DNA of 37,519 bases from NCBI GenBank assembly GCA_013824245.1, contig PNNN01000015.1, positions 1 to 37,519 on the forward strand, written 5' to 3'. The translations under genes were made by a program, and so were the position numbers. Position 1 is the stretch's first letter; each line of letters begins with the position of its first letter. Source of the stretch: Chlorobiaceae bacterium. GTDB lineage: Bacteria > Bacteroidota > Ignavibacteria > UBA10030 > SZUA-254. The notes below the pieces were generated by a model. It saw nothing but the letters and a program-made list of their open reading frames with translations. It was not told the DNA's origin and searched no databases. Below are positions 4,466 to 16,967 of the stretch, piece after piece.

Positions 4466-4586
4466 AAAGATCGAAAAATTATCTGTAATAATGATTCTTT
4501 AGTATTTCGTTATATTCTTTCCGTTAAAACTTCGTTCTGTTCATTGCATGTAAAACGAATTTCTACTTCCGTGGAACGTAGTTTTG

Positions 4587-4674
4587 CGGAAAGGGTGGGA
4601 TTCGAACCCACGGACCGCTTTTGACGGTCACACACTTTCCAGGCGTGCCAATTCAACCGCTCTTGCACCTTTCC
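4587..4674 (-). tRNA. tRNA-Ser (anticodon GGA)
   Basis: An 88-nt class II tRNA on the minus strand. The acceptor stem GGAAAGG (4674-4668) pairs with CCTTTCC (4594-4588), with discriminator G at 4587. The anticodon stem CACGC/GTGTG encloses the loop CTGGAAA, placing anticodon GGA at 4640-4638. The long variable arm and the T arm with GGTTCGAATCC are present, as expected for serine. The 3' CCA is not encoded; the bases after the discriminator are CA then A. Confidence 0.96.
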
Positions 4675-15981: not shown

Positions 15982-16060
15982 TTTTGCAACTCTACCGATA
16001 AATTAGTACATTTATACAATTAAATTTTCAAGTTACATCCACGGAGAGGTGGGTGAGTGG
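15982..16060 (+). repeat. 79-bp direct repeat, copy 1 (tRNA promoter plus first 18 nt of tRNA-Ser)
   Basis: Identical over 79 bp to 16587-16665. It contains a promoter (TTGCAA 15984-15989, 17 nt, TACATT 16007-16012) and the first 18 nt of tRNA-Ser(GCT), 16043-16060. It begins just after the stop of the DUF1028 gene. Confidence 0.95.
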
Positions 16061-16197
16061 TCGGTTCAAATCAAAGATTTGAACAAGATCTCGTCCCGCA
16101 AAAAGCGGGACGGACTGAAACCAGCGGTTTGTTCGTCTCGTCCACATCTGTGGACGGACGGAATCTCGCTCCGCTCAGAAGCGGAACGGACTAAACC
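16043..16197 (+). pseudogene. Broken 5' copy of tRNA-Ser(GCT) with two hairpin insertions
   Basis: tRNA nucleotides 1-18 (16043-16060) are followed by a 54-nt insertion (16061-16114). Nucleotides 19-35 then resume exactly (16115-16131), followed by a 59-nt insertion (16132-16190) and seven more matching bases (16191-16197), after which tRNA similarity stops. Insertion 1 holds two hairpins: GTTCAAATC/GATTTGAAC and GTCCCGC/GCGGGAC. Insertion 2 is built the same way: CGTCCACA/TGTGGACG and TCCGC/GCGGA. Both end in CGGA and both sit in front of CTRAA. The 3' half of the tRNA is absent here, so it cannot give a functional tRNA unless spliced. Confidence 0.85.
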
Positions 16198-16306
16198 CTT
16201 CGGGGTTGTTTGCTTACATAAAAGATTCATACTGTTGTGGTAACACTGCGCATGTAGCGGGAAAATGATTTACTTTCCAAATCGAAAAATAAGTTATTAA
16301 ATTGCC

Positions 16307-16582
16307 TTGAAATATTACGTTTATCTATTATTCTCAAAAGAGTTCAATCGAACTTATGTTGGACAAACCCAAAATTTGGAAAACCGTTTAGATTATCACA
16401 ATAGTGGCAAAGTAAGATCAACAAAACATCATCGACCATGGATTATTTTATATGATGAAGAATTTAGAAGTCGTTCAGAAGCAATGAAACGGGAAAAATG
16501 GTTTAAAAGCTCTGTCGGAAGAAAATTTATCAGAGAACTACTTTCAAAATTAAGTGTAGAGAGTTTGCAGGATGACAATTAA
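16307..16582 (+). CDS. Small GIY-YIG nuclease family protein
   Basis: 91 residues starting at a TTG (16307); no ATG is available before the conserved N terminus. The GIY element reads YVY (about 4-6) and the YIG element YVG (17-19). Arg27 and His31 follow in ENRLDYHN, and the conserved Glu region is SEAMKRE (57-63), so all core positions of the stand-alone GIY-YIG domain appear present. The length matches the UPF0213/YhbQ-like single-domain class. The gene lies between a broken and an intact copy of tRNA-Ser(GCT), with the second 79-bp direct repeat starting 4 nt after its stop, which suggests a mobile or homing role. The 109 nt before it (16198-16306) contain one short hairpin and nothing else I recognise. 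Confidence 0.85.
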   Translation: MKYYVYLLFSKEFNRTYVGQTQNLENRLDYHNSGKVRSTKHHRPWIILYDEEFRSRSEAMKREKWFKSSVGRKFIRELLSKLSVESLQDDN

Positions 16583-16586
16583 TAAA

Positions 16587-16665
16587 TTTTGCAACTCTAC
16601 CGATAAATTAGTACATTTATACAATTAAATTTTCAAGTTACATCCACGGAGAGGTGGGTGAGTGG
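16587..16665 (+). repeat. 79-bp direct repeat, copy 2 (functional tRNA promoter and 5' end)
   Basis: Exact copy of 15982-16060. Here the promoter TTGCAA (16589-16594), 17-nt spacer and TACATT (16612-16617) drives the intact tRNA-Ser(GCT) starting at 16648. The repeat unit-to-unit distance is 605 bp and encloses the GIY-YIG gene. Confidence 0.95.
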
Positions 16666-16740
16666 CTGAAACCAGCGGTTTGCTAAACCGCCGTACGGGG
16701 TCAACCTGTACCGAGAGTTCAAATCTCTCCCTCTCCGCCA
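16648..16740 (+). tRNA. tRNA-Ser (anticodon GCT), intact, CCA encoded
   Basis: A class II tRNA of 90 nt plus an encoded CCA. Acceptor GGAGAGG (16648-16654) pairs with CCTCTCC (16730-16736), discriminator G at 16737. Anticodon stem GCGGT/ACCGC encloses TTGCTAA, anticodon GCT at 16682-16684. A long variable arm (GTACGGG...CCTGTAC) and a T arm GAGAG/CTCTC are present. The encoded CCA contrasts with the tRNA-Ser(GGA) in this window, which has none. Confidence 0.96.
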
Positions 16741-16787
16741 AACTGCGTTTCGCTTTGCTCAACTTCGTTTGGCAGGGTTAAAAAATG

Positions 16788-16820
16788 AAACTCCGATTTT
16801 CGATGAGATCGGAGTTTTCA
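16788..16820 (+). terminator. Rho-independent terminator after tRNA-Ser(GCT)
   Basis: The stem AACTCCGAT/ATCGGAGTT is followed by TTTTC. It lies about 50 nt downstream of the encoded CCA. Between them is another inverted repeat, GCCAAAC (16737-16743) with GTTTGGC (16767-16773), whose left arm uses the tRNA 3' end. Confidence 0.75.
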
Positions 16821-16863
16821 ATTTATATATGGTTAGTGGCTTAATCCTACCGTGTGCCATCGT

Positions 16864-16918
16864 TAAACCGCCGTACGGGGTCAACCTGTACCGAGAGTTC
16901 AAATCTCTCCCTCTCCGC
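16864..16918 (+). pseudogene. 3' fragment of tRNA-Ser(GCT)
   Basis: 55 bp identical to 16684-16738 of the intact gene, from the third anticodon base to just past the discriminator; weaker similarity continues into the flank (AACTG.GT). The acceptor 5' strand is missing, so it cannot fold as a tRNA. A diverged D-arm-like stretch, GGTTAGTGGCTTAATCC, lies just upstream (about 16831-16847), so this may be a decayed full copy rather than a clean fragment. Confidence 0.85.
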
Positions 16919-16967
16919 ACAACTGTGTCACAATAAATCGTGATTGCGTTTTTCGGGCAATAAGATA

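Follow-up and report, generated by a model that had tools for sequence, protein, structure and literature searches.

The 37,519-nucleotide (nt) stretch of DNA analysed here (the window; contig PNNN01000015.1 of a Chlorobiaceae bacterium) contains a small GIY-YIG nuclease gene lying between a partial and an intact copy of tRNA-Ser(GCT). We think it likely that this locus is one copy of a widespread, minimal homing-type mobile gene that resides in tRNA genes. As we picture it, the element is a gene of ~80-95 codons that encodes a single-domain, Slx1/UPF0213-like GIY-YIG nuclease and would live inside tRNA genes. After insertion, the open reading frame (ORF) would be flanked by the resident tRNA in two versions, a full-length, functional gene and a redundant partial copy. 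The latter, or relic, would be either the 3' part of the tRNA (arrangement A) or its 5' part together with the native promoter (arrangement B). The observations behind this proposal are the position and strand of the gene with respect to tRNAs, the geometry of the relics, the loyalty of nuclease lineages to a tRNA isotype, the occurrence of occupied and empty alleles and the match between relics and their own genome's tRNA, together with covarying hairpins, conserved active-site residues and purifying selection on the nuclease. Cleavage, the cut site, homing, the route of duplication and the role and origin of the hairpins are what we infer from them.

Anatomy of the window locus

The window locus, all on the forward strand, runs from a 5' tRNA copy with hairpin inserts through the GIY-YIG ORF to a promoter and intact tRNA-Ser(GCT). 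ARAGORN places the intact, uninterrupted tRNA at 16648-16740, and a genome search finds its sole other full-length match in the 3.23-Mb assembly to be tRNA-Ser(CGA), at 76%. An exact 79-bp repeat (15982-16060, identical to 16587-16665) comprises 61 bp of upstream region and nt 1-18 of the tRNA, which places one copy of a putative native promoter region ahead of the relic (15982-16042) and an identical one ahead of the intact gene (16587-16647). The relic itself (16043-16197) holds tRNA nt 1-18 at 16043-16060, nt 19-35 at 16115-16131 and, by eye, nt 36-42 at 16191-16197. It is split by two clean double-hairpin inserts: one of 54 nt in the D loop (16061-16114; fold z = -6.9), which lies between nt 18 and 19 with no nucleotide lost, and one of 59 nt in the anticodon loop (16132-16190), seen directly. 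When 16040-16240 is folded as a whole, z is -6.2, none of 200 shuffles equals it, and the centroid structure has five hairpins of at least 5 bp. The relic aligns, hairpins included, with that of a sister species (G001), where the first hairpin of the counterpart of the 59-nt insert differs in sequence yet stays a palindrome. The ORF (16307-16582) has a TTG start, encodes 91 residues and matches Pfam PF01541 at 5.9e-17; between the tRNA copies of the window there is no other ORF of at least 80 residues, and hence no recombinase gene of that size. An earlier note, made from the letters of this stretch, had described the intact tRNA, the 79-bp upstream copy, a 55-bp identical 3' copy and the small nuclease ORF between 5' relic and intact gene, and all four are borne out.

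The same note took the two outer relics for the halves of one interrupted tRNA, bounding a cassette that brought its own promoter. The sister species argues otherwise: its locus consists of 5' relic, ORF and intact tRNA, with no 3' relic, so we reject a cassette bounded by the two outer relics at the window locus. In most loci the relic lies across the ORF from the tRNA. As for the promoter, the sequence upstream of the single tRNA-Ser(GCT) at an empty site in a relative (G006, L142) resembles both promoter copies in the window genome (G000) and in G001; the upstream region has thus been duplicated locally, and the promoter of the intact gene copies the native tRNA promoter, with no clear sign that a cassette supplied it. 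The 3' relic stands apart, as an addition to the conserved unit. A first comparison gives 65 nt at 95% (16864-16928), including the 55 identical nucleotides, which are tRNA nt 37-91; in full, the genome search shows a degenerate copy of nt 10-91 at 16831-16918 (85%). As it reaches back to nt 10, a D-arm-like stretch noticed earlier belongs to this relic. We see no hairpin insert within 16831-16918. A terminator-like hairpin, seen directly, follows the intact tRNA at 16790-16816. Of the intron-less nuclease module that the note proposed, the tRNA-linked GIY-YIG gene, the partial copies, the intact tRNA and the empty sites stand, and the anatomy, with its 3' relic inside the unit, does not.

Association with tRNA genes

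A homologue search with the window protein covered 60 genomes (its own and 59 relatives); 49 matched, and the distribution is patchy, with 11 of the 60, own genome included in the count, giving no match at E 1e-4. Every place listed among the matches in the relatives was taken as a locus, 132 in all: 89 in a top set, 39 in a weaker set and four others obtained through another search (L172, L173, L175, L176), which belong to a clade bounded by inverted repeats and were left out of the scan of the weaker set; the homologue search had further matches beyond those listed. Among these listed matches ARAGORN finds a tRNA in 110 of 132 loci (81/89 top, 29/39 weaker, 0/4 others); the 81 include L080, which carries two tRNAs and no domain match, its search match containing a stop. 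L219 was scanned for tRNAs only. The top set and the window genome together have 108 domains in 94 of 95 loci. For the 96 of these domains with a tRNA in the locus, the nearest one is on the same strand every time (96/96), at a median gap of 31.5 bp, and 23 tRNA species are represented; in the weaker set the nearest tRNA is likewise on the ORF's strand (29/29). As an internal control in the top set, the 100 bp next to the domain hold 3.87 tRNAs/kb, and more than 400 bp away the density is 0.01/kb (two tRNAs in 198 kb). Given the locus counts, the same-strand counts and this density control, we reject a chance association.

A separate scan of genome-contig records gave the same picture. It yielded 34 loci, all from bacterial genomes, in Ignavibacteriota, Bacteroidota, KSB1, Zixiibacteriota, Kryptoniota and Planctomycetota; a tRNA is present in 29, the nearest is always on the ORF's strand, and in 28/34 it lies within 200 bp. 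The sets overlap, in that L017/L108, L019/L111 and L024/L112 encode identical proteins. Elements at Ser(GCT) occur in Melioribacter, KSB1 and Bacteroidota records, those at Met(CAT) in Zixiibacteriota, Kryptoniota, Saprospiraceae and Ignavibacteriota, and those at Asn(GTT) in Planctomycetota, where the matched frame starts 1-2 nt past the tRNA in 6/10. ARAGORN finds no tRNA in L111, L115, L119, L128 and L131; L111 has Ser relics, and the other four show no match to the Asn, Ser and Arg tRNAs tried, L115 lying at a contig end. A scan of viral contigs, made once with the window protein as sole query and thus reaching close relatives only, gave no confirmed relative. One prediction may be an annotation trap: what ARAGORN calls 'Ser(act)' at L113 2737-2819 reads as tRNA-Arg(TCT), copied over its full length and bearing a D-loop hairpin.

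The association recurs within the window genome, which has seven GIY-YIG domains, six of them small and one in a 637-aa frame (L007) that is presumably UvrC. Four of the six small genes adjoin an intact tRNA, namely Ser(GCT), Pro(CGG), Asn(GTT) and Ser(CGA), and in all four the far side of the ORF carries part of that tRNA again.

Relic geometry

If the ORF was inserted into a tRNA gene with one full copy preserved, then the end of the tRNA that a relic retains should depend on the side of the ORF on which it lies. We compared 84 loci, among them those of the window genome. Where the tRNA comes first (arrangement A: tRNA, ORF, relic), a relic lies past the ORF in 42/43 loci, and 41 of these 42 relics retain the 3' end of the tRNA and one the 5' end. 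Where the tRNA comes last, as in the window (arrangement B: relic, ORF, tRNA), a relic lies ahead of the ORF in 38/41, with the 5' end retained in 35 and the 3' end in three. Relics of the 5' kind are nearly as frequent as those of the 3' kind (38 vs 42 loci). The ORF also abuts the tRNA closely: in arrangement A it starts 0-8 nt past the tRNA in 19/51 entries (start codons assigned by a script rule), and in arrangement B 18/45 entries have the ORF's stop codon within the intact tRNA, 16 of them in its first 24 nt. Relic ends and abutment are together what insertion with one full copy preserved predicts.

Downstream relics start at nt 13-28 in 20/42 loci and upstream relics end at nt 31-49 in 22/38, so many relics bracket a junction somewhere from the D loop to the variable arm, a stretch that includes the anticodon arm without singling it out. 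A cut at the anticodon, as the earlier note had suggested, would be compatible with these boundaries.

At diagnostic positions, the relic base equals the base of its own genome's tRNA in 109/109 cells (21 locus pairs, five of them uninformative), a test biased in that segments were detected by their resemblance to the tRNA of the same genome and individual loci recur in many pairs. The relics of the window genome and of G001 each track their own intact tRNA, including changes common to relic and gene. The match points to local origin or gene conversion, a result that the detection method favours, and on account of the 109 own-genome matches the relics are unlikely to be plain decaying pseudogenes. 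In a few loci, tandem arrays of 5' tRNA copies stand ahead of the intact tRNA with no intervening ORF (L122 2211-2382, L129 2165-2351, L110 2199-2378 and L118 1-115); hairpins are evident within those of L122, L129 and L110.

Occupied and empty sites

The earlier note predicted that relatives would have empty sites, and they do. The window's Ser(GCT) site is empty in five family members (G005, G006, G007, G009 and G013), where a gene like that for the upstream 403-aa protein is followed by a single uninterrupted tRNA-Ser(GCT) and then by gltX (56-75% identity). These five sites contain no GIY-YIG frame and no partial tRNA copy above 10-nt matches. Across 30 Ser(GCT) stretches a GIY-YIG frame is present in five, one of which (L157; L191) is nearer a tRNA-Pro.

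Comparison with the sister species shows the two states exchanged between sites. The Ser(GCT) element is common to both genomes. The Ser(CGA) site is occupied in the window genome and empty in G001, and the Ser(GGA) site is occupied in G001 and empty in the window genome. This last site falls within the window, on the reverse strand (4586-4674): its flanks align with those in G001 (L058), which has tRNA, ORF and a relic with a hairpin doublet where the window has the tRNA alone. Occupied and empty alleles thus exist at the same site, reciprocally, within one genus.

Isotype loyalty

To follow the tRNA along the nuclease phylogeny, we used a tree of 136 domains and 78 columns, in which 120 rows were labelled with 12 isotype states, and compared it with 200 shuffles of the labels. 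Isotype requires 20 changes, where no shuffle needs fewer than 69; isoacceptor requires 36 (shuffles at least 86) and the arrangement, A or B, 26 (shuffles at least 31). Lineages therefore tend to keep their tRNA and to switch sides. Protein lineages span phyla.

The nuclease

An AlphaFold 2 model of the window protein has a predicted local distance difference test score (pLDDT) of 94.6. Its closest relatives by profile and fold are UPF0213 (BH0048, 1zg2; 6.4e-15 in the profile search) and the branched-DNA nuclease Slx1, ahead of I-TevI; they differ from the proteins described here in that these inhabit tRNA genes. The window nuclease is one domain of ~90 residues, which leaves no room for the second domain of Slx1. 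In family and structure searches with this protein, GIY-YIG DNA nucleases alone were matched. In a comparison of 69 proteins Y17, R27 and H31 never vary, and Y6, G19 and E63 are almost fully conserved; by analogy with I-TevI and its relatives, all six are presumed catalytic. The ratio of nonsynonymous to synonymous substitution rates (dN/dS) is 0.05-0.19 in six of seven pairs, the seventh, window against G001, being saturated at synonymous sites. By this measure the nuclease is under purifying selection.

Hairpins

Seventy-three inserts were mapped in relics, with a median fold z of -3.8 and 85% below -2, although those that come from related or tandem loci cannot be counted as independent. 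Placed on the ARAGORN structure, 39 of the 73 breaks fall within a loop (D, anticodon or T), nine at a border of loop and single strand and 25 in a stem; loops make up 37% of tRNA positions, and several of the 'stem' breaks adjoin a loop. Clean hairpin inserts occur at equivalent tRNA positions. Often the insert is a doublet of hairpins with T...A ends; in one insert (L006), a hairpin is nested in the loop of another.

The stems of the doublets covary. In two length classes of nine doublets each, chosen by hand among mapped inserts and loci read as sequence, pairing holds in 99.1% and 100% of cells, a percentage that is partly due to choice since the rows were selected as hairpins; the covariation score was reached by none of 500 shuffles, and sliding destroys the signal. 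Cruder measures separate less well: for pairs changed on both sides, shuffles reached the value 101 times in 500 in the first set, and for further pair types 59 and 63 times in 500. Strict doublets are about seven-fold denser inside element spans than outside (0.67/kb vs 0.09/kb). The window has ten, nine of them outside the element and mostly AT-rich, and five random controls have 0-4; a genome-wide hairpin repeat is not supported, though it stays conceivable.

Proposed mechanism and alternatives

In the mechanism that we favour, the nuclease would target an uninterrupted gene for its cognate tRNA isotype and cut it at some point from the D loop to the variable arm, and recombinational repair off an occupied allele would copy the ORF. 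The flanking tRNA sequences would act as homology arms, such that a whole tRNA would always remain. The partial copy would later fill with hairpins at or near the tips of the arms, and these may block further cutting or recombination.

Several observations weigh against this proposal. At the empty sites the upstream gene is just 24-39% identical to that of the window, and in G009 it lies ~750 bp away. The intact tRNA is identical in occupied G001 and empty G009, though the flanks change; no sequence change that would protect the element's own tRNA is thus seen in this comparison, and the proposal does not account for its being spared. The nuclease is a single domain with no extra DNA-binding module to account for isotype specificity. 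Relic boundaries outside the ranges given above scatter by tRNA type, Ser(GGA) most. In the 78-column tree deep nodes are weakly supported, the Val and Gly rows fail to cluster, Ser, Asn and Arg each appear at several places with several changes, and tandem and duplicate rows inflate the isotype clustering. The role and origin that we give the hairpins are conjectural. Finally, ARAGORN finds no tRNA in 22 of the 132 listed loci, of which at least four hold tRNA relics near a contig end (L019, L022, L054, L064) and eight form one clade with other boundaries (L169-L176, which includes the entries L089, L092, L093 and L097). GIY-YIG genes away from any tRNA, which the earlier note held to be damaging to its idea, thus exist as a minority and are not the general pattern.

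The simplest alternative is that a tRNA gene was duplicated or triplicated in tandem, that the outer copies decayed and that the nuclease gene is an accidental neighbour. Such a history may explain the window's 3' relic, an unbroken degenerate tRNA with no hairpin seen that is present in G000 and not in G001, and it would suit the ORF-less 5' copy arrays of L110, L122, L129 and L118. The D-arm-like stretch that the earlier note cited in its favour is part of the 3' relic. As a general explanation it is very unlikely, given a tRNA in 110/132 loci, one within 200 bp in 28/34 genome-record loci, an orientation shared with the ORF wherever checked, relic ends that match the side of the ORF, and isotype loyalty. 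We consider it less probable still that the loci are remnants of a tRNA-targeting integrase island or a self-splicing intron. Integrase islands leave 3' tRNA copies, and group I introns carrying GIY-YIG genes sit in anticodon loops. Against both, the window has no other ORF of at least 80 residues between its tRNA copies, 5' relics are nearly as common as 3' ones, and the tRNA is uninterrupted. An intron was also rejected by an Rfam search of L001, L006 and L110, in which hits with E up to 0.1 were tRNA families and sub-threshold matches to two other, non-intron families.

Two functional explanations are somewhat less improbable, though we doubt both. The locus could be a toxin-antitoxin-like or regulatory unit in which the nuclease attacks the tRNA or its gene and a hairpin-bearing partial transcript serves as decoy or inhibitor. 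Structured tRNA-like copies do abut the ORF, sometimes in tandem, their stems covary and the nuclease is largely loyal to an isotype; against this, the relic lies on the gene's own strand with the native promoter region attached, the searches matched GIY-YIG DNA nucleases only, and presence or absence at orthologous tRNAs together with relic geometry better fits insertion. Slightly less credible to us is a nuclease that serves the host, co-transcribed with tRNAs and engaged, for example, in tRNA-gene repair or copy-number control. It would account for the purifying selection, and the profile and fold relative Slx1 acts in maintaining ribosomal DNA (rDNA) copy number (PMC1564403). A host function sits poorly with the patchy distribution (11/60 genomes without a match), with syntenic sites that are empty in close relatives and with related lineages in distant phyla.

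Relation to known systems

In fungal mitochondria, intron-less homing genes are accompanied by duplicated 3' gene ends, for example of rps3 or atp6. The likeness to the elements described here is close: a nuclease gene sits in a host gene, a duplicated end restores that gene and the remnant is displaced. The difference is that those hosts are organelle protein genes, whereas here they are bacterial tRNA genes, with 5' and 3' versions and a hairpin-bearing remnant. The nearest precedent is SegB of phages T4/T6, a free-standing GIY-YIG homing endonuclease whose gene adjoins tRNA genes; it is reported to cleave within tRNA genes and to promote, through recombination, the amplification of tRNA together with segB (PMC13096335). 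SegB is phage-borne, reportedly favours no isotype in any apparent way and, in the sections consulted, is not described with a hairpin-filled partial tRNA copy (PMC13096335), whereas window-type elements are found in bacterial genomes, are single-domain and are largely isotype-loyal. The hairpins, in turn, recall the double-hairpin or repetitive hairpin elements of mitochondria, which are described as tandem paired hairpins with complementary stem changes and insertions in RNA genes (PMC2800124). Tandem hairpins whose structure is kept by paired changes are common to both; those reported here are bacterial and strongly concentrated in the partial tRNA copies of a nuclease element.

In the open-licence literature we found no recognisable description of bacterial chromosomal GIY-YIG elements resident in tRNA genes; what came up was SegB, organellar hairpin elements and surveys of GIY-YIG proteins. 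The loci thus seem to represent a kind of minimal mobile element not described before, one that occupies essential tRNA genes, among the most conserved sites in genomes, and leaves them functional. If this is correct, a one-gene, non-disrupting element that largely keeps its isotype across phyla and comes and goes between sister species would be among the smallest autonomous mobile elements of bacteria. It would also be a source of partial tRNA copies in genomes, a natural candidate set of isotype-specific tRNA-gene cutters, and a bacterial system in which to study the spread of hairpin elements, a problem that mitochondrial genomes have left open. The steps could be tested with the 91-residue protein and a 93-bp target.

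Members away from tRNA genes

In the clade of eight mentioned above (L169-L176), the ORF lies near inverted repeats of ~10-15 bp, CCCCGTGAGAT...ATCTCACGGGG. By strict pattern they are present on both sides in five places; on reading, two more have both sides with a variant, and L176 has one side. ARAGORN finds no tRNA at these places. On the tree, L089, L092, L093 and L097 are placed weakly, among tRNA-bound Leu, Arg and Cys lineages. At four places (L171, L172, L174, L175), where both sides were read, a protein gene is interrupted; judging by their translations, these are integrase-like (L172, L174, L175) and YhcG-like (L171). This clade supports mobility in the wider family and a link between nuclease and palindromes. 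A bolder proposal, possible though in our judgement doubtful, is that small Slx1-like GIY-YIG nucleases drive bacterial hairpin mobility as a counterpart of RAYT-REP. They would act on hairpin tips extruding at tRNA genes and so place new hairpins in the loops of the spare copy; a nested lineage would move into protein genes as an ORF bounded by inverted repeats, and the hairpin-filled tRNA copy or its transcript would set isotype specificity.

The two remaining small GIY-YIG genes of the window genome, L002 and L004, have no tRNA and are flanked by other palindromic repeats. These are found at L002 1340-1440 and at L004 480-860 and 1160-1345, and are of the CCCTGAGCTTGTCGAAGGG, GCCGAT...ATCGGC and GGATGACGG types. 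In two further loci from one genome (L195 and L199, G030), the GIY-YIG domain lies inside an open frame of more than 1100 aa, with no tRNA in the fetched stretch. The array beside L004 has two weak further matches in its genome, one of them on the same contig.

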